NCBI GenBank assembly: GCA_013329455.1
Contig: DUKF01000159.1
Coordinates: 18,874 to 42,005, forward strand
Direction: 5' to 3'
Length of the DNA stretch: 23,132 nucleotides
Origin: Methanotrichaceae archaeon
Lineage (GTDB): Archaea > Halobacteriota > Methanosarcinia > Methanotrichales > Methanotrichaceae
The notes under the pieces were generated by a model. It ran no database searches, was not told where the DNA came from, and saw only the letters and a list, made by a program, of their open reading frames with translations. The translations under genes and the position numbers were made by a program. The stretch's first letter is position 1. Every line of letters begins with the position of its first letter. This document shows positions 5,302-15,356 of this stretch, one piece after another.

Positions 5302-5331
5302 TATTTATTCTATTGTGGTAAATTTTATACA
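5302..5331 (+). promoter_or_regulatory. pstS promoter block (copy 1)
   Basis: TATTTATTCTATTG (5302-5315), then 7 bases, then the TATA-like TTTTATAC (5323-5330). The same arrangement with the same spacing recurs at 8758-8786 before the second pstS. The TATA centre is about 31 bases before the ATG, so the transcript should have only a few leader bases. Confidence 0.6.
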
Positions 5332-5357: not shown

Positions 5358-6221
5358 ATGAATAGACCGCTAGTTTCCTTTTTGATCGCCTGTTTGGCGA
5401 TCGTATCGATCCTATCCTTTTCGGGATGCATTGACGAGGAGAAAGAAGGCGCGCCCGCTCCGGATGCGGCCGCCGTCTCCGTTGCCGGATCCACCACGGT
5501 GATGCCCCTGGTGGAAGCCTGCGCTGAAGAGTTCAACAAAATCCAGAATATGGTTCGCGTTTCCGTCACCGGCGGCGGTTCCGGTGTTGGGATCAAGAAC
5601 GTTGCCGAGGGCCTGTCCGACATCGCCATGGCCTCAAGGCAAGTGAAGCCCGATGAACTCGCCGCCTACGGCAACAGCTTCGAGGAATTTGTGGTCGCCT
5701 ACGACGCCATAGCCGTCGTCGTAAGCCAGCCCATCTACGAGGCAGGCATCACCGACCTATCCCAGGAGCAGGTGAAGGCCATCTACAGCGGCGAGGTCGC
5801 CAACTGGAAGGACGTGGGAGGTCCCGATGAGAGGATCTACGTGGTTGCAAGGGAGGTTGGCTCCGGGACCAGAGACACCTTCAACGGGATGGTAATGGGC
5901 GGCGTTGAGGCCGAAACCCCGGGCGTTACCACCTACCACGGCAGCAACGCCGAGGTGAAGACCGCCGTGACTAACAGCGATAAGGCGATCGGATACGTCG
6001 GGATGAACTACGCCGAGGGCGGAGCCCTTCGTGCCATAGCTTACGGAGGAGTTACGCCCTCAGCAGAGACGATAAAGGACGGCTCCTACCCGCTTTCGAG
6101 AGCCCTCAACCTCTACACCTTCGGCGATCCCGGCCCCGACGCCAAAAAGTTCATCGACTTCATCCTGAGCGACGAGGGTCAGAATATCGTCCAGGATTCC
6201 GGGTTCGTCCCGATCCGGTGA
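5358..6221 (+). CDS. pstS: Phosphate ABC transporter substrate-binding lipoprotein PstS
   Basis: A 287-residue periplasmic-type phosphate-binding protein. It starts with a hydrophobic signal sequence ending in the lipobox LSFSGC (C24), so it should be lipid-anchored outside the cell membrane. The mature part shows GSTTV (44-48), TGGGSGVGI (71-79), the SDIAMASR block (about 87-94) and REVGSGTR (165-172). The last corresponds to the Arg/Ser-Gly-Thr phosphate-binding loop of the PstS family. The C-terminal section ends in the usual LSDEGQNIVQDSGFVPI. It is the first of three intact pstS genes here and the only one with a lipobox. It shares its promoter block with the second copy. It is expected to feed PstC/PstA at 12089-15356. 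Confidence 0.95.
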   Translation: MNRPLVSFLIACLAIVSILSFSGCIDEEKEGAPAPDAAAVSVAGSTTVMPLVEACAEEFNKIQNMVRVSVTGGGSGVGIKNVAEGLSDIAMASRQVKPDELAAYGNSFEEFVVAYDAIAVVVSQPIYEAGITDLSQEQVKAIYSGEVANWKDVGGPDERIYVVAREVGSGTRDTFNGMVMGGVEAETPGVTTYHGSNAEVKTAVTNSDKAIGYVGMNYAEGGALRAIAYGGVTPSAETIKDGSYPLSRALNLYTFGDPGPDAKKFIDFILSDEGQNIVQDSGFVPIR

Positions 6222-6249: not shown

Positions 6250-6274
6250 GCGCTGGCGGTTAAAGTGCCAGCGC
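6250..6274. terminator. Bidirectional hairpin between pstS and secreted protein gene
   Basis: A perfect 8-bp stem, GCGCTGGC (6250-6257) with GCCAGCGC (6267-6274), and a 9-base loop. It lies between two convergent stop codons (6221 and 6319) and has T-rich sequence on both sides. A related hairpin follows the paralog at 7470-7498. Confidence 0.6.
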
Positions 6275-6318: not shown

Positions 6319-7236
6319 CTAATACTGCGCTTTGGATTTGTCTGGCCAGGAGTCACCCCAAGCGACGTCTCTGCAGGTGCAGTCGAAGATCTCCTCTTCG
6401 CCCCAGACCCTGTCGTAATCTTCCATCTCGCCGTAGCCGCCGACGCAGCAGGAGAGCCAGTCTGGCCTCACTTTCTTGGCGTACTTTGTGGCGCAGTATT
6501 CCATGTTCTTCGTTATCTTGAAAGTGCCCACGTAGTCCTCTTCGATCTCGATCTTTGGGTCCTTCCAGGCATAATCCTCTGAACCTGCCACCAGTTCGCC
6601 TATGTGGACAGTTCCTTCGGTCACCTCTTCCTCGATCCTCATCCGGGCGAGGCCCACTCCATTTTCATGCGAGGAGCTGTATTTCGATGTCGTTGTGGGA
6701 ACCGGTTCCTTGCACTGCAGGTCGACGCCCACGTCCTTTTTGAACGCTGCAGCGTACTCGATCTGATGGTGCATCGAGGTCCGTACTTCACCCTGGTAGT
6801 TCTTGCCCCAGGTCTTCTCCTTCAGCTTGGAGTTGTAGACTATGGGGTTCTTTTCGTAGTAGCCGGTCCCATAGGCCATCGCCACTGGAGCGTAGACCAT
6901 CTCGTTCTGCTCCAAGAAGGATATGTTCTGGCTGTAGGCATATTCGGCCGGGAGATAGACCTGTGTATTTAGATCCTGAGGATAGTACTTGATTTTGCTC
7001 TCGTTTGAGCTGATCAGGGTCGCTGCATCCATAGTGCCGCTCCCGTGCATATAGTTTTGGAGTTCCAGGGTCGGAGTGTTCACGTTTTGATACACCATGG
7101 TGTAGCCTTCTCCCTCCACATCCTGTTCGAAGTTGTGTTCGTAGAGCTGAACCCATCCAGCCGATGCTGACGCCGCCATGAAGATCAGCAGGACAAGTGC
7201 AGCCCCGGCGTTCATCGTCCTTCCAACACGTATCAC
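6319..7236 (-). CDS. Secreted cysteine-containing protein of unknown function (paralog A)
   Basis: The function is not recognised. This 305-residue protein has a signal peptide (hydrophobic 10-22, probable cleavage after ASASA at 26) and no other membrane segment, so it should be exported. It is rich in Tyr, Glu and Gly and appears beta-rich. Blocks shared with the neighbour at 7539-8450 include LQNYMHGSG (59-67), AYGTGYY (121-127), SMHHQIEYA (154-162), EGTVH (207-211), YVGTF (235-239) and a C-terminal module with SCCVGGYGEME (262-272) and FDCTCRDVAWGDSW (284-297). Its cysteines (C175, C248, C263, C264, C286, C288) are all conserved in the paralog, which suggests disulfides or a metal site. 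The start is a GTG at 7236, 5 bases after GGAGGG. Nearby ATGs at 7241 and 7238 are out of frame, and ATG 7215 is a weaker alternative. It converges on pstS. Confidence 0.85.
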   Translation of the reverse strand: MIRVGRTMNAGAALVLLIFMAASASAGWVQLYEHNFEQDVEGEGYTMVYQNVNTPTLELQNYMHGSGTMDAATLISSNESKIKYYPQDLNTQVYLPAEYAYSQNISFLEQNEMVYAPVAMAYGTGYYEKNPIVYNSKLKEKTWGKNYQGEVRTSMHHQIEYAAAFKKDVGVDLQCKEPVPTTTSKYSSSHENGVGLARMRIEEEVTEGTVHIGELVAGSEDYAWKDPKIEIEEDYVGTFKITKNMEYCATKYAKKVRPDWLSCCVGGYGEMEDYDRVWGEEEIFDCTCRDVAWGDSWPDKSKAQY

Positions 7237-7538
7237 ATCATCCCTCCTATAAAATTAAGATTGTTCTAACGCAATTTGCGCGACAATCTATCTCAAAATG
7301 AGTAGTTGCATCAAGTATATAACGATTTATACTCAGCACAAACAGTCTAAATTTGTCATACGAATCAGATATTTATGTGCAAAGATTTTTAAAAATAAGA
7401 AAAATCGTTTTAAAAACACCATACAATCATAACGATAAAAGCACGCATAAAATAATATGGAGGGAGTTTGCGCTGGTGTTTTAAAAAAAAGCCAGCGCGA
7501 CTCTACTTTTCATCGTGATTTCTGGCAGATTCGTTCAA
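7237..7538 (-). promoter_or_regulatory. Upstream/leader region of paralog A and 3' end of paralog B
   Basis: This AT-rich stretch of about 300 bases has no gene. Reading on the minus strand, TATA-like boxes lie at 7326-7333 and 7314-7323, implying a leader of 50-65 bases for paralog A. Within that leader are the inverted repeat AGATTGT (7258-7264) / ACAATCT (7283-7289) and an inner palindrome CGCAATTTGCG (7270-7280), which could fold in RNA or serve as an operator. A distant pair, AACGATTT (7321-7328) / AAATCGTT (7402-7409), is also present. The right end holds the terminator hairpin of paralog B. Confidence 0.4.
7464..7503 (-). terminator. Terminator hairpin of paralog B
   Basis: GCGCTGG (7470-7476) pairs with CCAGCGC (7492-7498) around an A/T-rich 15-base loop. 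Outer GAGT/ACTC pairs (7464-7467 and 7500-7503) extend the stem past a small bulge. It lies 41 bases after the stop of paralog B. The string GCCAGCGC followed by RACTCTA is shared with the hairpin beyond paralog A. Confidence 0.6.
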
Positions 7539-8450
7539 TTACAGGGATTGTTCATTGGATTTGTCGCTCCAGGAGTCGCCCCAGGCGACGTCTCTGCAGG
7601 TGCAGTCGAAGATCTCCTCTTCTCCCCAGATCTTGTCGTCGTCTTCCATCTCGCCATAGCCGCCGACGCAGCAGGAGAGCCAGTCCTTGGGAGCTTTAGG
7701 CTTGCTCTTCTCGGCGCAGAGCTTCATGTTCTTCTTGATCGCGAAGGTTCCAACGTAGTTCTCGTCGATCTCGATCAAGGGGTCCTTCCATCCTCTGCTC
7801 CCTTCAGGATTGGTTAAGAGCTCGCCAACGTGGACCGTACCTTCTATCACCGTCTCCTCGATCCCCATCTCCGCTAGGCCGTGGCCTTTAACGCCCTCCT
7901 CATTGCTCTCTATGCACTCCAGGTTCACCCTGATGTCCTTTCCAAACCCCTGGGCGTACTCGATCTGATGGTGCATCGAGACGCCTTCCTGGTAGCTCTT
8001 GCCACAGGTCTTCTCCTTCAGCTTGGAGTCGAAGACTACGGGGTTTTTGGCATAGTATCCTGTGCCATAGGCGAAGCTCTGTGGGGCGTAGTCCATCTCG
8101 TTCTGCTCCACGAAGGATATCGTGCCCTGTTTAACTTTCGTCTTACTCGAAGCGTATCGGCCTGTGTCCGGATCGAACTTGTAGTAGCTCTTCTCCGCCT
8201 GGCTGGAGTTGATCAAGGTCGCTGAGTCCATGCTCCCGCTCCCGTGCATGTAGTTTTGGAGCTGGAGAGTCTCGGTGTTCACCTTCTGATAGACCATGGC
8301 GTACCCTTCGCCAGAGACGTCCTGGGCGAAGCGGTGCTCGTTCTCGACGAAGTATCCTTCAGGGTTATTGGCGGCCAAAGAAGGACCTCCCATGAAGAGC
8401 AGCACCGAAAGCGCTGCTGTCACGTTTATGATCATCCCTACATCCCTCAT
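7539..8450 (-). CDS. Secreted cysteine-containing protein of unknown function (paralog B)
   Basis: A homolog of the gene at 6319-7236, about the same length (303 residues from this start); function not recognised. A signal peptide (hydrophobic 7-20, probable cleavage near SLAA at 24-27) predicts export. It shares the LQNYMHGSG, AYGTGYY, SMHHQIEYA, EGTVH and YVGTF blocks and the C-terminal SCCVGGYGEMED / FDCTCRDVAWGDSW module. The six shared cysteines are C179, C245, C260, C261, C283 and C285; C149 is extra. The open frame runs back to 8513, but ATG 8450 is preferred because it is preceded by AGAAGGG at 6 bases and gives a normal signal peptide. ATG 8456 would abut that site. With paralog A it forms a minus-strand pair between two plus-strand pstS genes, so a role in phosphate limitation is possible but only inferred. 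Confidence 0.85.
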   Translation of the reverse strand: MRDVGMIINVTAALSVLLFMGGPSLAANNPEGYFVENEHRFAQDVSGEGYAMVYQKVNTETLQLQNYMHGSGSMDSATLINSSQAEKSYYKFDPDTGRYASSKTKVKQGTISFVEQNEMDYAPQSFAYGTGYYAKNPVVFDSKLKEKTCGKSYQEGVSMHHQIEYAQGFGKDIRVNLECIESNEEGVKGHGLAEMGIEETVIEGTVHVGELLTNPEGSRGWKDPLIEIDENYVGTFAIKKNMKLCAEKSKPKAPKDWLSCCVGGYGEMEDDDKIWGEEEIFDCTCRDVAWGDSWSDKSNEQSL

Positions 8451-8566
8451 ATACATCCCTTCTCTAAATTTGCGGCTGTTGATTGCGATTTTTACATCGA
8501 CTGACACAACCATCAGGGATATGGGGTATAAAATTAATCACAATAATATAAATAGGTCTAAAGACT

Positions 8567-8614
8567 ATGGTTACATAACTTTTTCGTACACATCGATGGT
8601 TACAACACTTTTTC
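8567..8614. repeat. 19-bp direct repeat pair, possible operator
   Basis: ATGGTTACATAACTTTTTC (8567-8585) and ATGGTTACAACACTTTTTC (8596-8614) match at 17 of 19 positions and start 29 bp apart, close to three helical turns. The position between two divergent promoters suggests a regulator-binding array. The regulator is unknown. Confidence 0.55.
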
Positions 8615-8757: not shown

Positions 8758-8787
8758 TATTTATTTTATTGAGAATAGTTTTATACA
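8758..8787 (+). promoter_or_regulatory. pstS promoter block (copy 2)
   Basis: TATTTATTTTATTG (8758-8771), 7 bases, then TTTTATAC (8779-8786). It matches the block before the first pstS at 13 of 14 positions, plus the whole TATA element, with identical spacing. The TATA centre is about 30 bases before the ATG at 8813. Confidence 0.6.
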
Positions 8788-8812: not shown

Positions 8813-9640
8813 ATGAGCATAAGGTCAAAATCTGTACTAGCCAGCGTTCTGATAGTGGCGTTTTTGGTGGCCGCAGAGACCGCTGCAGCTCTATCTGTAT
8901 CAGGGTCGACTACGGTCCTTCCCTTTGGCGTGCAGTGCGCAGAGGATTTCAACACGATGCAAAGCGACATTGATGTCTCTGTCACCGGTGGCGGATCCGG
9001 CGTCGGCATCAAGAACATCGCCGAGGGGATCAGCGACATCGCCATGGCCTCAAGAAAGGTAAAGGACTCCGAGAAGGAGGCCTACCCTGACGAGGAGTTC
9101 GTCGAGACACCCATCGCCTACGACGCTGTTTGCGTCGCCGTGAGCCAGGCGGTCTACGACGCCGGCGTCACAGACCTGTCCCAGGAGGATGTCCAGGCGG
9201 TCTACAACGGCGAGATCACCAACTGGGCGGACCTTGGCGGCGACGATGAGGCGATCTACGTGGTCGGAAGAGAGGTCGGCTCAGGCACCAGAGACACCTT
9301 CAACGGGATGGTCATGGGCAGCGACGAGGCTGAAACTGAGGGTGTCAGGACCAACGTCGGCAGCAACGCCGAGATGAAGACCGCGATAGTCAACAGTGAC
9401 AAGGCCATCGGCTACCTCGGTCTCAACTACGTCCAGAACGGAGACCTCGTGGCCATCGCCTATGAGGGGGTTGAGCCCTCCGCCGATACGATAAAGGACG
9501 GGTCCTATCCTCTCGCTAGAGAGCTTTACATGTACACCTACGGCGAGCCCAGCGAGGACGCTCAGGTCTTCCTGGACTTCGTGACCGGTGAAGACGGTCA
9601 GACAATCGCCGAAGATCTCGGCTTCGTATCGATAAACTGA
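8813..9640 (+). CDS. pstS: Phosphate ABC transporter substrate-binding protein PstS (second copy)
   Basis: A 275-residue PstS paralog. A signal peptide (hydrophobic 8-21, Ala-rich end near 26) leads directly into the binding domain: SVSGSTTV (28-35), TGGGSGVGI (58-66), SDIAMASR and REVGSGTR. There is no lipobox cysteine, so the protein is either released outside the membrane or held there by other means, unlike the first copy. The start at 8813 is chosen over the open frame from 8711 because the conserved TATA element at 8779-8786 lies inside that upstream extension and because the signal peptide begins at 8813. The sequence between GSTTV and the C-terminus is very close to the first copy, indicating a fairly recent duplication. 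Confidence 0.93.
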   Translation: MSIRSKSVLASVLIVAFLVAAETAAALSVSGSTTVLPFGVQCAEDFNTMQSDIDVSVTGGGSGVGIKNIAEGISDIAMASRKVKDSEKEAYPDEEFVETPIAYDAVCVAVSQAVYDAGVTDLSQEDVQAVYNGEITNWADLGGDDEAIYVVGREVGSGTRDTFNGMVMGSDEAETEGVRTNVGSNAEMKTAIVNSDKAIGYLGLNYVQNGDLVAIAYEGVEPSADTIKDGSYPLARELYMYTYGEPSEDAQVFLDFVTGEDGQTIAEDLGFVSIN

Positions 9641-9776: not shown

Positions 9777-10124
9777 TTGGAGGTGTCGGATTTCGTGGGC
9801 AGAAGATCAGGATGCGTTCTGAAACTCGTCGCTATCTTTGTCATTTCAGTCATTGCTGCATTTTCGTCTTATTCTGGGACAATGATCAGGAGAACGTCCT
9901 TCGCTCGGCTCAAAGGCGCGCCCGGCTTTCTGTGGTCGGGTCGACTTCGGTTCTGCCTTTTGCCGAGATCTGCTCTGAGGAGTTTCAACTCCGTCCCGCC
10001 GGTTTCCGTGACCGGGGCCGGGAGCGGGACCGGGTGCGGCATTGGCATCGGGATCAAGAGCCTCGCTTCAGGCATCGCAGACATCGCCATGGCCTCAAGA
10101 TAGGTGAAGCGTGAGATGGCATAA
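9777..10124 (+). pseudogene. Decayed pstS fragment
   Basis: Pieces of a PstS N-terminal half lie in two frames. One frame gives a hydrophobic export segment (LVAIFVISVIAAF). The other frame then gives RLSVVGSTSVLPFAEICSEE, matching the GSTTVLPF region. The first frame resumes with VSVTGAGSGTGCGIG and LASGIADIAMASR, matching the TGGGSGVGI and SDIAMASR blocks. Two compensating frame changes are therefore needed. TAG follows immediately after MASR (10101-10103), a few homologous codons (VKREMA) remain, and then TAA ends it. The phosphate-binding second half is missing. It lies between two intact pstS copies, so it is a failed tandem duplicate. Confidence 0.8.
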
Positions 10125-10191
10125 AACGGTGAAGTTCGAAAATTGAGATCGGGGAAAGATTGATATTATTTTGAAAGAGGTGTTGAAGAGG

Positions 10192-11052
10192 ATGACGAGG
10201 CCTGAATCTGTCATGACCTGGGTCGTGGTGGCAATATTCGTCACGGCCGCGGCATTTTTCTACTTCATCGGCGGCGAAGACCCGGCCTTTTTCGATTCGT
10301 CCGGCGGCACGGTTTCGACCTTGTCGGTTGCGGGATCGACCACGGTTCTGCCCTTTGCCGAGGCTTGCGCTCGAGAGTTCAATCGAGAGCAGAAGGATGT
10401 GATTGTCACCGTCACCGGTGGCGGGACCGATGCTGGGATCAATCGACTGGCTGCGGGTCTTGCCGAGATAGCGATGGCATCGAGAAAGGTTGACGACGCT
10501 GAGATGGAGGACCTTGGCGGTCATTTAGCGGAGCATCCAATCGCTCGTGACGCTGTATCGATCGTTGTGAGCAGGCCCATTCGTGAAGCCGGGATTGATG
10601 ATCTGAGCCAAGACCAGCTCAGGGCGATCTACACCGGTGAGATCACCAGCTGGAAGGAGCTCGGCGGCCCGGATCGAGAGATTATCGCTGTATCAAGATC
10701 CCCGGGATCGGGGACCGGCGAAATCTTCAGCGAGAGGGTGGCAACCCCCGGGGTTGCGGTATACCGTGATAGCAGCGCCGAAGTCGAGAAGTACATAGCC
10801 GGAAGCGACAGAGCGATCGGGTATCTGGGCTTGAACCTTGTCTGTAACGAAGGTCTGGGTGTCGTCGCCTACGAGGGCGTTATGCCATCAGTGGAGACCG
10901 TGAAGGACGGGTCTTATCCCCTCGCAAGGACCCTCTACATGTACACCTGGGGCGAGCCTGACGAGAACGAGTGGGCGTTTTTGGACTTCGTCACTGGAGA
11001 AAAGGGACAGACCATAGCCGAGGAGCTGGGGTTTGTGCCAGTCTCGACCTAG
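10192..11052 (+). CDS. pstS: Phosphate ABC transporter substrate-binding protein PstS (third copy, membrane-anchored)
   Basis: A 286-residue PstS paralog with GSTTVLPF (48-55), a changed glycine loop TGGGTDAGI instead of TGGGSGVGI, LAEIAMASR, and RSPGSGTGEIF in place of REVGSGTRDTF. The Arg and Ser-Gly-Thr of the phosphate loop are kept, but the neighbouring Arg is lost and the segment after it is shortened. The N-terminus has a hydrophobic helix (about 9-27) with no lipobox and no clear cleavage site, so it may stay as a membrane anchor. ATG 10192 is preferred because GAGGTG (10177-10182) sits 9 bases upstream. A TTG at 10171 would add seven residues. It lacks the promoter block of the other two copies. 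It is the most divergent copy and may differ in affinity or ligand. Confidence 0.9.
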   Translation: MTRPESVMTWVVVAIFVTAAAFFYFIGGEDPAFFDSSGGTVSTLSVAGSTTVLPFAEACAREFNREQKDVIVTVTGGGTDAGINRLAAGLAEIAMASRKVDDAEMEDLGGHLAEHPIARDAVSIVVSRPIREAGIDDLSQDQLRAIYTGEITSWKELGGPDREIIAVSRSPGSGTGEIFSERVATPGVAVYRDSSAEVEKYIAGSDRAIGYLGLNLVCNEGLGVVAYEGVMPSVETVKDGSYPLARTLYMYTWGEPDENEWAFLDFVTGEKGQTIAEELGFVPVST

Positions 11053-11116: not shown

Positions 11117-11380
11117 TCAGCAGGCCTCCGTACCCGGAGGACCGTATTCCTCAAAGCTCTGGGCGACGATTGTCCTGGTGGTGATGACGCCGTCCATTTC
11201 CCGTATCGTCTCGACAAAACCGTTGAGCATTAAAAGGCCATCCACCTGGACGTTCAGGAAGAAGTCGAAATCTCCGAAGAGAATGTACATCTTTCTGATC
11301 CCAGCGGTGCCTTTGAGCATTCTGTGAATACTCTTTTCATTGCCAGGAACTATCTTCACCATAATGATTCCGTCGATCAT
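11117..11380 (-). CDS. Stand-alone Lrp/AsnC-type ligand-binding (RAM) domain protein
   Basis: This 87-residue protein resembles the C-terminal RAM/ACT-like domain of Lrp/AsnC regulators without the DNA-binding helix-turn-helix: IIMVKIVPGNEKSI (strand and helix), the conserved KMYILFGDFDFFLNVQVDG turn-strand, then VETIREMDGVITTRTIVAQ. Such single-domain proteins usually form dimers or octamers that bind small ligands, or partner with full-length Lrp proteins. ATG 11380 is chosen from the domain boundary. ATG 11437 in the same frame overlaps the last stop of the alkaline phosphatase remnant (TGATG) and would add 19 residues. No good ribosome site decides between them. It converges on the third pstS. 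Confidence 0.6.
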   Translation of the reverse strand: MIDGIIMVKIVPGNEKSIHRMLKGTAGIRKMYILFGDFDFFLNVQVDGLLMLNGFVETIREMDGVITTRTIVAQSFEEYGPPGTEAC

Positions 11381-11436: not shown

Positions 11437-11766
11437 TCAAATCCCATCGCCCTCCACATTTTCCGGACCGCCCAAGTCCAGAGAGTCCGATAAAATCTGG
11501 ATGCTGCATCCCATCTTGTCCATTTACAGCTTGGTGTTCTGGTAGTTGTCCAGGGTGGGTTGGTAGTTGGGCTGGTCGCCACCGGCCTTTTCCCACCTGG
11601 CGGCGGTCACCTGGGCGTATCCCATGCCGTCGCCGATCAGGAAGATCACACTCTTTGCTCCGTCTGCTGTACCGTCTTCCATCTCGGTTCCCATGGCTGC
11701 CATGGGACGCGAAACTGAAATGAACAATAATGTCAAAACCCAGAGGGCTAAATGCTGCCATCTCAT
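11437..11766 (-). pseudogene. Truncated alkaline phosphatase (5' fragment)
   Basis: The reading frame begins normally: AGAGGT (11773-11778) lies 6 bases before ATG 11766, followed by a signal peptide (LALWVLTLLFISVS) and then AKSVIFLIGDGMGYAQVTAAR, the N-terminal metal-site signature of alkaline phosphatases (GDGMG carries a Zn/Mg ligand Asp). After 80 codons a TAA (11524-11526) interrupts. The frame continues with MDKMGCS, which fits the expected continuation, and degenerates to a TGA at 11437-11439. More than two thirds of a normal 400-500 residue enzyme, including the catalytic serine region, is absent, so it cannot be active. The fragment fits the phosphate theme of the island. Confidence 0.8.
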
Positions 11767-12088
11767 TCCGATACCTCTTTTGTCAGATCATGTGGCGAGC
11801 TACCTTTTCGCCGGCCTTCTCGCATTTCAGAAAGGCGCTTCAACGCCGCCACGGTCGATAGCAGGGCACGGCTTTATGTAAATATTGCACAAATATAATA
11901 AATAGGGGTGCTTATTTCGTATTCCGTCCATTTTCTATATAGATCGAGCTCAGCGCTCTTTAACTGAGATGCTACTTTTCTCATCAGTCTCGAATGCAGT
12001 AACAAATTTCCAGCAGCTGGCCAATATCTATATAGATTCTTTTTGAGAATTTTCTCTATATAATAAATATGGAAAAGAGGCTTATACT
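11767..12088. promoter_or_regulatory. Divergent control region before first pstC
   Basis: A 322-base gap without a gene. It carries palindromic TCTATATAGA elements at 11934-11943 and 12026-12037 (ATCTATATAGAT) and a related CTCTATATAATA at 12054-12065. The last is centred about 29.5 bases before the pstC ATG and is the likely TATA box. AAAGAGG (12074-12080) is a possible ribosome site if a more upstream promoter is used. AT-rich sequence at 11882-11903 could serve the leftward alkaline phosphatase remnant. Confidence 0.5.
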
Positions 12089-13024
12089 ATGTACCAATCG
12101 AAAATTCTCATGGCCGCTCCGAAGAAGAGCCCCCTTCTGAACCGCCGCATTCGAGAGCAGATCATCGAGTCGTCGTTCTTCTTCGCCGCCATCACATCAA
12201 TTTTGGTGATGGTCCTGATCTTCTACTTTTTGATTCACGAGAGCTTCTCGGCTTTCATGGAGGTGGGTATCTTCAACTTGCTCTTCGGCCAGAAGTGGCA
12301 CTCTGCTGGAAACATCTTCGGCATGGCCCCCATAATCGTGGGCTCGACCATGGTCACCCTCCTTGCCCTCATCATAAACATCTTCGTGGGAGTTCCCCTG
12401 GCCATCTACCTGTCAGAGCTTGCCGGGCCCCGGATTCGTTCGGTTTTGAAGCCCGCAATCGAGCTGTTAGCTGGCGTTCCCTCCATCGTCTACGGCTTTC
12501 TCGGGGTTCTGATTCTAGTGGTCTATCTCGAGAAGAGTTTCGATATGCTCACTGGAAGATCGATTCTGGCTGGATCGATTCTCCTCGGGATCATGTTCAT
12601 CCCAGCCCTGACGACGATATGCGAGGACGCTCTCAGGGCCGTTCCCAAGGAGTTCAAGGAGGGATCTCTCGCCCTCGGCGCAACCAGGTGGCAGACGGTG
12701 CGAAGAGTCACTCTTCCGGCCGCGTCCTCGGGGATCATCTCCGCCGTCGTTCTCAACGTTGGAAACATCATCGGGGAGACTATGGCCGCTCTCCTGGTGG
12801 TGGGTAATGTCGCAAGGCTCCCCTCGCCCATCTTCGACGTATTTGATCAGAGTGCCATCTTCACATCGGTAATCGCCGGGGAGATGGGGGAGGTTCCCCA
12901 TGGTTCGATGCACTACCACGCACTCTTCGCCGTGGGGTTCGTTCTGCTGGTGATAGTAACGGTCCTCAACATATCGGCGGACTTTGTAAGAGCTGCGATC
13001 AAGAAGAAGTTCGGAGAATACTGA
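12089..13024 (+). CDS. pstC: Phosphate ABC transporter permease PstC (first copy)
   Basis: A 311-residue inner-membrane permease that with PstA forms the phosphate channel. After a polar N-terminus there is a hydrophobic helix (about 30-52), a loop typical of PstC, then the ABC permease core with several helices. The coupling EAA loop is EGSLALGATRWQTVRRVTLPA, which contacts the ATPase PstB. GETMAALLVVGN and the late HYHALFAVG segment are also family features. It is separated from the second pstC by 114 bases with a new promoter, so it is probably its own unit. It is nearly identical to the next gene in the central and C-terminal parts and differs mainly at the N-terminus and the first periplasmic loop. 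Confidence 0.93.
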   Translation: MYQSKILMAAPKKSPLLNRRIREQIIESSFFFAAITSILVMVLIFYFLIHESFSAFMEVGIFNLLFGQKWHSAGNIFGMAPIIVGSTMVTLLALIINIFVGVPLAIYLSELAGPRIRSVLKPAIELLAGVPSIVYGFLGVLILVVYLEKSFDMLTGRSILAGSILLGIMFIPALTTICEDALRAVPKEFKEGSLALGATRWQTVRRVTLPAASSGIISAVVLNVGNIIGETMAALLVVGNVARLPSPIFDVFDQSAIFTSVIAGEMGEVPHGSMHYHALFAVGFVLLVIVTVLNISADFVRAAIKKKFGEY

Positions 13025-13103
13025 TCAGTTCACTTTTCGTGGAAATAGAATCTTCATTCCACCGGTTGCCGTCTGCCGCTTGTGGGATATATAGCAGTAC
13101 TCA

Positions 13104-13115
13104 CTCTATATAGAG
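13104..13115 (+). promoter_or_regulatory. Palindromic TATA element of second pstC
   Basis: CTCTATATAGAG is a perfect 12-bp palindrome centred 29.5 bases before ATG 13139, the same distance as the CTCTATATAATA element before the first pstC. Its TATATA core is placed as a TATA box for a leaderless transcript. Its symmetry would also suit a dimeric repressor. Confidence 0.55.
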
Positions 13116-13138
13116 AATATAGATAAGTGCTATAAGCG

Positions 13139-14080
13139 ATGAATGAACGCTCAGGTGGTAATATGGGTCCTCCAGCCAAACGCGGCGTCCTCCGCTCTCG
13201 CAGATACGGCGACGGCTTTGTGGAAGCGCTCCTCTTCTTTGCCGCCATCACTTCCATACTGGTAATGGTCCTGATCTTTTACTTCCTTACCTACGAGAGC
13301 TTTCTCGCCTTCAGGGACGTGGGCGTCTTCGATATGATCTTCGGCCAGAAGTGGCATCCTGCCGGCGATATCTTCGGCATGATGCCGATAATCGTCGGCT
13401 CAGTTCTGATCACCTTCATCGCCCTCTTCATAAACATCCTGGTGGGGATTCCTCTCGCGATATACCTCTCCGAGCTTGCAGGGCCCTGGTCCCGGGAGTT
13501 TCTAAAGCCCGCGATCGAGCTTTTGGCGGGGGTTCCTTCCATCGTCTACGGCTTTCTCGGGGTTCTGATTCTGGTGGTCTATCTCGAAAAGAGCTTCGAT
13601 ATGCTGACCGGAAGGTCGATTTTGGCGGGGTCGATCCTCCTAGGGATCATGTTCATCCCGGCCCTAACGACGATATGCGAGGACGCCCTCAGGGCCGTTC
13701 CCAAAGAGTTCAAGGAGGGCTCTCTCGCCCTCGGCGCCACCCACTGGCAGACGGTGCGAAGGGTGACCCTCCCCGCCGCCTCCTCTGGGATCATCGCCGC
13801 CGTGATCTTGAACGTCGGCCGGGTCATCGGGGAGACTATGGCCGCCCTCCTGGTGGTGGGAAACGTCGCCCGGATTCCCTCGCCCATTTTCGATGCTTTC
13901 GACCGGGGCGCGATCTTCACCTCGGTCATTGCCGGGGAGATGGGGGAGGTGGCCCACGGATCGATGCACTACCATGCCCTCTTCGCCGTGGGTTTCGTTC
14001 TGCTGGTGATCGTGACCATCCTCAACATCTCGGCGGACCTCATCAGGGCCGCGATCCAGAAGAAGTTCGGAGGATACTGA
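13139..14080 (+). CDS. pstC: Phosphate ABC transporter permease PstC (second copy)
   Basis: A 313-residue tandem paralog of the preceding permease. The block VPSIVYGFLGVLILVV through EGSLALGAT and on to GETMAALLVVGN is almost unchanged, while the first 30 residues differ. ATG 13139 suits the TATA box spacing. ATG 13163 has AGGTGGT three bases upstream and would remove eight residues; either is possible. It is coupled to pstA: TGA ends at 14080 and the pstA ATG is at 14082, with GGAGGA (14070-14075) inside the end of pstC as the ribosome site. This copy is therefore the one made together with PstA. Confidence 0.93.
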   Translation: MNERSGGNMGPPAKRGVLRSRRYGDGFVEALLFFAAITSILVMVLIFYFLTYESFLAFRDVGVFDMIFGQKWHPAGDIFGMMPIIVGSVLITFIALFINILVGIPLAIYLSELAGPWSREFLKPAIELLAGVPSIVYGFLGVLILVVYLEKSFDMLTGRSILAGSILLGIMFIPALTTICEDALRAVPKEFKEGSLALGATHWQTVRRVTLPAASSGIIAAVILNVGRVIGETMAALLVVGNVARIPSPIFDAFDRGAIFTSVIAGEMGEVAHGSMHYHALFAVGFVLLVIVTILNISADLIRAAIQKKFGGY

Positions 14081-14081
14081 G

Positions 14082-15356
14082 ATGAAAAAAATCAAGCCGG
14101 TACCACTGGCATCGATCGTCGTCGCCCTCTTTTTGCTAATCTCTTCACTTTATTACCTGTTAATCCAGTCAGAAGAGATCCCCCTGGTGCCGTTCTGGAT
14201 GGGTGGTCTGCTGGTCTGTACCGTTCTCATATCGGCCTCTGCCCTAGCTCTCAATCGGAACGCTGACGATCGGACGCGCGTCGTCTGGACCCGGGGCAGG
14301 TTTTTGCCTTTGGCAGCAGATCTGGTCTACTTTCTGGCCGTATTTCTTCTGGTTTTTTCGGGTCGGATCCGCCCTGACCTGGAGTTCGAGTTTCTGGGGC
14401 TGAGCGCGGTCTTCACCTATGATCTGGTCCTCCCCTTTCTGGTCCTTTTGGCGAGCTTCCTTGTGATAAAGGACTCAATCAACCTTCTCTACGGGTACAG
14501 CACCAGGGGAAGGGAGGTTCTGGTATTCTCGATGGTCCGGCTCTCAGCGGTCTTCACCCTCTTGCTTTTGGGCGGCATCATCTCGATAATCCTCTACAAA
14601 GGCATCGGGGCCATAAGCTGGGAGTTTCTGACCCAGCCCCACTTCCGGCTCGGACAGGAGGGTGGGATAAGCACCTGCATCGAGGGCAGCTTCTGGCTGG
14701 TGATGGGGGCGATGCTGATCTCGGCCCCGTTGGGGGTCGGGGCCGCCATCTACCTCAACGAGTACTCCAAGCGCACCGGGTTAAAACGGATCGTCACCAT
14801 CGCCGTCGGCTGTCTTAACGGCGTGCCTTCGGTCGTCTACGGCCTCTTCGGGCTCGCTTTCCTGGTGGCGACCTTTGGCATATCGCTTCTGTCTGGATCC
14901 ATAATCCTGGGCCTGATGAACCTGCCCACCATAATTCTCACAAGCCAAGAGGCGTTGAAGAGCGTTCCAAACTCTTTGCGGGAGGGGAGCGTGGCTCTGG
15001 GTGCGACGAAATGGCAGACGGTCTGGAAAGTGGTGATACCCTCGGCTCTTCCAGGAGTCCTTACAGGGATGATCATAGGGGTTGCCAGAGCTGCCGGAGA
15101 GACGGCCCCCATCATGTGGACTGCCGTGACCTTCTCTGCGACGCCAGTCCACATGTTCTACGGCGTCATCCCCGACGTAACCCAGCCCGTGAACAACCTC
15201 TGCTACCATCTCCTCAATCTGATATACTTCCTGGGAGCATGGGACGTTGAGACTAAAGCCTGGGGGACTGCTTTGGTTCTGCTGGCCCTCGTCTTGATCA
15301 TTAACATGGTAGCCATCCTGGTCCGAAACCACTACAGAAAGAAGATCTCCTGGTGA
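14082..15356 (+). CDS. pstA: Phosphate ABC transporter permease PstA with N-terminal membrane extension
   Basis: A 424-residue permease. The C-terminal 280 residues are standard PstA: a helix at about 152-172, GAAIYLNEYSK, GVPSVVYGLFGL, the EAA coupling loop EGSVALGATKWQTVWKVVIPS, and RAAGETAPIMW. PstA proteins are usually near 280-300 residues. Here about 145 residues precede the core and contain roughly four additional hydrophobic segments (8-27, 38-57, 76-93, 108-128) with a short charged loop (60-72). The extension may help assembly or accept a partner. The gene is translationally coupled to the second pstC. The next gene, after a 48-base gap with its own TATA box, is unrelated, so the ATPase gene pstB is not in the operon. 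Confidence 0.93.
   Translation: MKKIKPVPLASIVVALFLLISSLYYLLIQSEEIPLVPFWMGGLLVCTVLISASALALNRNADDRTRVVWTRGRFLPLAADLVYFLAVFLLVFSGRIRPDLEFEFLGLSAVFTYDLVLPFLVLLASFLVIKDSINLLYGYSTRGREVLVFSMVRLSAVFTLLLLGGIISIILYKGIGAISWEFLTQPHFRLGQEGGISTCIEGSFWLVMGAMLISAPLGVGAAIYLNEYSKRTGLKRIVTIAVGCLNGVPSVVYGLFGLAFLVATFGISLLSGSIILGLMNLPTIILTSQEALKSVPNSLREGSVALGATKWQTVWKVVIPSALPGVLTGMIIGVARAAGETAPIMWTAVTFSATPVHMFYGVIPDVTQPVNNLCYHLLNLIYFLGAWDVETKAWGTALVLLALVLIINMVAILVRNHYRKKISW

Follow-up and report, generated by a model that had tools for sequence, protein, structure and literature searches.

The Pho regulon comprises the pst genes and phoA, and PhoE of E. coli is the outer-membrane porin of phosphate limitation. Methanothrix, a major biological methane source, has a sheath, a very resistant protein coat. 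The core of archaeal sheath (SH) proteins is described as amyloid-like, with two six-stranded beta-sheets, and the survey by Medvedeva et al. 2024 (PMC11576556) found SH proteins throughout the Methanotrichales, with up to 40 copies, and a patchy occurrence in Methanomicrobiales, ANME-1 and Thermofilales. In that survey, SH groups are compared by structure alignment, as the groups resemble each other little in sequence, no conserved genomic context is described beyond SH genes themselves, and all but a few SH copies of M. thermoacetophila have very low transcription, Mthe_0668 and Mthe_0667 being the most transcribed; a separate paper gives Mthe_0677 as an S-layer gene.

Here we describe two genes for probable SH-family proteins that lie within a phosphate-uptake locus. 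The window is a stretch of 23,132 nucleotides, part of a 42-kb contig from a Methanotrichaceae genome (G000) that is 81.5% complete and, among named records, comes closest to those of Methanothrix harundinacea and Methanothrix sp.; we compared it with the other members of its M. harundinacea-type genus, nine genomes in all. The features that bear on the argument are as follows.

5302–5329, plus strand: 28-bp element before pstS1
5358–6221, plus strand: pstS1, phosphate-binding protein (PF12849, E 2.6e-45)
6250–6274, minus strand: 3′ hairpin of SH1, GCGCTGGC...GCCAGCGC, identified by eye
6319–7236, minus strand: SH1, probable exported SH-family (sheath-type) protein with a Cys-rich C-terminal tail, 305 aa from GTG 7236 or 298 aa from ATG 7215
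7470–7498, minus strand: 3′ hairpin of SH2, identified by eye
7539–8513, minus strand: SH2, probable exported SH-family protein, 324 aa as listed
8527–8554, minus strand: 28-bp element of SH2, TATTTATATTATTGTGATTAATTTTATA, 13 bases before the listed SH2 start
8569–8585 and 8598–8614, plus strand: two perfect copies of the direct repeat GGTTACANNACTTTTTC, 29 bp apart, between SH2 and pstS2
8758–8785, plus strand: the same 28-bp element before pstS2
8813–9640, plus strand: pstS2, phosphate-binding protein (PF12849, E 5.3e-43)
9812–10114, plus strand: decayed pstS fragment with shifted frames, between pstS2 and pstS3, identified by eye
10171–11052, plus strand: pstS3, phosphate-binding protein (PF12849, E 1.2e-40)
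11117–11380, minus strand: stand-alone Lrp/AsnC ligand-binding domain of 87 aa (PF01037), between pstS3 and the permease genes
11524–11766, minus strand: truncated alkaline-phosphatase (phoA) remnant, 80 codons before the first stop
11877–11904, minus strand: the 28-bp element in diverged form, with 4 mismatches, before the phoA remnant
12089–15356, plus strand: three permease genes, each with PF00528

Pfam places the three permeases in the permease family only; from their position we take them to be PstC1 (12089–13024), PstC2 (13139–14080) and PstA (14082–15356), and their order is kept in the related loci that we fetched. The Lrp/AsnC ligand domain could be part of a regulator, and relatives of it also occur within the pst locus of G005–G008 and G001.

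A first-pass annotation made from the sequence had described a reverse-oriented pair of exported paralogs of about 300 residues with six common cysteines, lying between two pstS genes. This description is borne out: the listed proteins of 305 and 324 aa have 59% identity across 314 columns (E 3e-126), SH2 has a seventh cysteine in its mature part, and the flanking plus-strand genes match PF12849. The invariant blocks that it pointed out, SCCVGGYGEMED and FDCTCRDVAWGDSW, are indeed identical in SH1 and SH2. Both N-termini carry a hydrophobic run and an Ala-X-Ala site (judged by eye), which points to export, and the mature proteins are acidic, with a pI of about 4.7 and a net charge of −19. The start of SH2 is likely the ATG at 8450 or 8435, which fits promoter geometry better than the listed start. 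Beyond a DWL(P/S)C motif both proteins continue into a Cys-rich acidic tail, DWLSCC...FDCTC, with CC and CTC cysteines; a tail after this motif is also found in other family members and so is not specific to the phosphate-linked copies. An AlphaFold2 model was only moderately confident (mean pLDDT 62.9, pTM 0.62) and placed three long strands in residues 58–142 and three to four in 178–269; a control model of the 243-aa protein introduced below reached a pLDDT of 36. The predicted strand pattern in two blocks would be compatible with the SH core and is no proof of a two-sheet core.

A protein search of 5.8 billion sequences returned 202 relatives, and the names among the 120 listed were Methanothrix, Methanocrinis or Methanotrichaceae. 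Members were found in 37 of 37 Methanotrichaceae genomes and in 0 of 23 other genomes of the class, with 2–16 matches per Methanotrichaceae genome (some being halves of one gene) and 7 in the source genome. When profiles were searched across the phylum, 20 of 392 genomes matched, comprising 15 Methanotrichaceae and 5 from three other families.

M. thermoacetophila PT has, in its sheath-gene cluster, a protein to which the family is related. Using hhalign, the profile of 60 homologs matched the profile of a 243-aa exported protein from this cluster (L096:7904-8635, minus strand) with a score of 59 over 217 columns and a probability of 95; the reversed profile scored 16 and the best of 100 column shuffles 25 (0/100 as good), and with the mature parts alone the best shuffle scored 33. 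Neither a repeat nor a broader family alignment produced a shuffle as good (0/60 in each). In PT, three consecutive genes for exported proteins of 243, 271 (the middle one) and 379 aa lie about 8–10 genes before the S-layer gene at 715.7 kb; counting from that gene, taken as Mthe_0677, the three should cover Mthe_0667 and Mthe_0668. The 271-aa neighbour shares colinear motifs with the 60-homolog profile but is not significantly similar to it: 4/60 shuffles were as good, rising to 11/60 with the broader alignment. The 379-aa protein showed no match to the family. The 243-aa and 271-aa profiles match each other only marginally (1/60 shuffles as good), and it is therefore the position within the cluster that gives the 243-aa protein its sheath label. 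A paralog in the source genome (C247) bridges both sides, with E 2.6e-6 to SH2 and E 6.3e-53 to the 243-aa-type profile, and the same genome also has a canonical 243-aa-type gene (C152).

SH1 and SH2 are most likely SH proteins. They resemble the archaeal SH proteins of Methanotrichales, Methanospirillum and ANME-1, as described in three papers (PMC11576556, PMC10593813, PMC6242892), in being apparently exported, about 300 aa long, beta-rich by prediction and cysteine-bearing, in occurring as multi-copy, tandem paralogs with a similar taxonomic spread, and in their significant profile match to the PT sheath-cluster protein. Unlike known SH copies they sit in a pst locus, where one would be driven by a pstS promoter element, and relative to the PT-type protein they extend past its DWLPC end by the Cys-rich acidic C-terminal extension. 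The first-pass annotation recognised no known family, which is right for Pfam and NCBIfam (0 families at E ≤ 10 for SH1 and SH2, with the three PstS proteins matching PF12849) and probably wrong for the literature, since the family is related to a sheath-cluster protein. Its proposed HMM and structure search was likewise divided in outcome, with no Pfam or NCBIfam family and no informative match in Foldseek or VIA comparisons, and on the other side the profile match to the 243-aa protein. Among the functions it had offered, a cell-envelope or sheath component gains support from that relation; we found no support for phosphate capture or for an extracellular hydrolase accessory. Tandem canonical SH-type genes also occur at G002:C8, G007:C71 and G001:C2:555-557 kb, arranged as are the SH clusters described in PMC11576556.

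The placement of these genes beside pstS is conserved within the genus. There, a pstS is found no more than 2.5 kb away from 18 of 20 close homologs (E < 1e-80) and from 21 of all 38 listed matches; outside the genus the figure is 4 of 102 listed matches, where all these counts refer to the matches listed (the weakest being absent), split matches having been joined manually and a G002 gene in two halves entering twice. Two arrangements recur across the nine genomes. The first locus has the order GatE-Orc1-PstS1-SH-PstS2-(PstS3)-permeases, and SH adjoins PstS2 in 9/9 genomes. In G001 and G004 extra genes lie between PstS1 and SH, in G003 TrpS stands at that spot instead, in G005 the contig ends there, and in both G003 and G005 PstS1 lies beside Orc1 on another contig; the G002 SH gene is split over two contigs, and G008 has an SH2 remnant that lacks the promoter element, followed by SH1. 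The second locus pairs another pstS with a convergent SH gene, again in 9/9 genomes (in G004, N letters hide part of the SH gene). The link to phosphate genes thus holds within the genus and does not characterise the family at large. A neighbourhood survey had been set beforehand as the test that could refute a phosphate role, and within the genus the link withstands it: all 9/9 genomes have close homologs next to pst genes, with a promoter element common to both. Outside the genus, 4 of 102 listed matches have a pstS within 2.5 kb.

The 28-bp element is shared almost exclusively among the pstS1, pstS2 and SH2-type promoters. In the window, the SH2 copy is identical to each pstS copy at 24 of 28 positions and no other site reaches 19, and the best match in 200 random sequences of 11.4 kb was at most 21. 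The first-pass annotation had already called the two pstS genes co-regulated, which the copies before both genes support, and had missed the copy before SH2. We searched the nine genomes with the pattern TATTTATNNTATTGNGNNNANTTTTATA, which was drawn from the window and from aligned SH-pstS2 intergenic regions, so that perfect matches at these promoters are partly circular; the evidence that counts is that the pattern is missing elsewhere and occurs at pstS1. With up to 3 mismatches allowed, this gave 32 matches, compared with 1 for the reversed control, distributed over pstS1 (9), pstS2 (9), the SH transcription unit (8) and a small-peptide gene (4), with 2 unexplained. The element ends in a TATA-like stretch 27–28 bp before both pstS start codons, a position that would fit an archaeal promoter. 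In two genomes it drives a short exported ORF first and then the SH gene (G001, L102 10142-10562; G006, L111 8543-8979); this ORF has an SH2-like signal peptide with a different remainder and overlaps the following SH gene by ATGA. No copy precedes SH1 in the window or the SH genes of the second locus, and the pstS3 and permease genes have none within 3 mismatches.

In G001, G002, G005, G006 and G007, a phoA gene of full or almost full length is preceded by a diverged copy with 4 mismatches, which is present in G008 too, where phoA was not found. This variant is weak, with a mean identity to the other copies of 17.8–19.2 of 28, about the level of random sequence. The phoA gene itself is full-length at the corresponding place in G001, G002, G005 and G006, with 403/419 aa matched in G007; the G001 relative of the window remnant has 419 aa and matches PF00245 at E 1.9e-91. 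Outside the genus, two genomes of genus g5 carry the element (1 mismatch) directly before pstS, on contigs without a listed SH match; in G020, one of the two genomes, a different contig bears a pstS fragment next to an SH gene. Its presence at pstS and at no SH gene in g5 suggests that the SH gene was recruited to it, and the simplest reading of these promoters is that the element is a promoter of the phosphate regulon, under which the M. harundinacea-type genus has brought an SH gene. The locus resembles a Pho regulon in uniting pstS, permease genes and phoA and in having an element common to two pstS genes; it differs from the usual one in that a coat-protein gene and a small-peptide gene also have the element, while pstS3 and the permease genes have no copy at the same threshold. 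The small peptide, about 45 aa long and ending in DPV(D/N/T)(H/R)WWLDA, lies directly behind the element in 4/9 genus genomes (0/8 others searched) and has no Pfam match, at the following loci.

G000:C263:8846-8980, minus strand: conserved peptide of about 45 aa
L102:8304-8438 (G001), plus strand: conserved peptide of about 45 aa
G004:C1:126013-126144, plus strand: conserved peptide of about 45 aa
G005:C158:136-261, minus strand: conserved peptide of about 45 aa

We consider it fairly probable that SH1 and SH2 are SH-family proteins that are now part of the phosphate regulon of this genus and join the sheath under phosphate limitation. When phosphate runs short, a regulator would act on the shared promoter element and induce the SH transcription unit (SH2 in the window) along with pstS1 and pstS2; the SH protein would be exported, fold into a beta-rich core and take its place in the hoops of the sheath as an alternative subunit, giving a coat under phosphate limitation that would differ from the normal one. 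The extra Cys-rich acidic tail may cross-link hoops or face outwards, which is a guess, and the benefit might be a changed permeability or surface chemistry. The broader proposition, that one Methanothrix lineage responds to the exhaustion of phosphate by remodelling its amyloid-like sheath with a dedicated subunit, after a sheath gene was recruited to the pstS element, we advance tentatively and at slightly less than an even chance. In principle this would resemble PhoE, as a phosphate-limitation isoform of an abundant outer-coat protein, although the proteins are unrelated and a charge comparison gave no sign of a more basic, anion-selective isoform.

The same sheath proteins could carry the element without any phosphate control, if it were a mere core promoter (TATA region) that local duplication had spread from one divergent gene to the other. 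SH2 and pstS2 are indeed divergent neighbours, the element has an AT-rich, TATA-like 3′ end, and SH1 and the second-locus SH genes do without it. A general promoter, however, would not be nearly absent from the rest of the nine genomes, where only 6 of the 32 matches fall, 4 of them at one peptide gene; pstS1, 3 kb off, has the element in 9/9 genomes, the two g5 genomes have it (1 mismatch) at a pstS whose contig holds no listed SH match, and a variant occurs at phoA, so that we regard the core-promoter explanation as unlikely. Lower still we place a direct role in phosphate uptake, in which SH-related exported proteins would serve at the surface, for example to capture phosphate or one of its compounds, and would not be structural sheath subunits. 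The position among three pstS genes, the conserved Cys-rich tail and the placement kept in the genus would all suit such a role, but the proteins have no PstS-like or other known domain in Pfam or NCBIfam and their acidic mature parts make no obvious phosphate trap, and because 98 of the 102 listed homologs elsewhere lie far from pst genes the family is not tied to phosphate. Finally, these SH variants might disturb or end the sheath hoops and thereby fragment the filaments under phosphate shortage, an idea with a parallel in the viral SH-like proteins, which PMC11576556 proposes to disturb the host sheath; the long-term conservation of the genes in the genus speaks against it, nothing we found is specific to breakage, and we judge it very improbable.

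The phosphate link is the new part of this picture, the SH proteins themselves having been surveyed in 2024. A search of literature on the sheath or Methanothrix together with phosphate, whose scope excluded most subscription papers and bioRxiv preprints, found no paper on such a link, and the words ‘phosphate’, ‘pst’ and ‘promoter’ are absent from the main text of the SH survey (PMC11576556). Phosphate limitation is thereby named as a likely condition for one set of SH genes, through a short promoter element that is directly testable, and the coat would be tied to nutrient supply; if this is true, the sheath is a nutrient-responsive layer and not a fixed shell.

Further sequence features accompany these genes. 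The GCGCTGGC...GCCAGCGC hairpin was seen by eye 3′ of 8/10 first-locus SH genes tabulated in the genus, and a similar GGCGCTTG-type hairpin 3′ of 7/7 second-locus SH genes tabulated; none was seen by eye after the two canonical SH genes tabulated. The charge and hairpin tabulation lacks G018_SHp, G007_SH4 and L027, whose reading frames could not be recovered, as well as the second-locus gene of G004, which contains a run of N; a further analysis dropped f10_G283, G000_C155 and G023_70k as well. The direct repeat GGTTACANNACTTTTTC may be a regulator site: it gave three matches at up to 3 mismatches against 0.21 expected, and is partly present in some related genomes. Among 16 contigs found, one (L048, JAHKLX010000024.1, 3065 bases) is titled Candidatus Micrarchaeota and encodes a relative that is 59% identical, perhaps through mis-binning or transfer.
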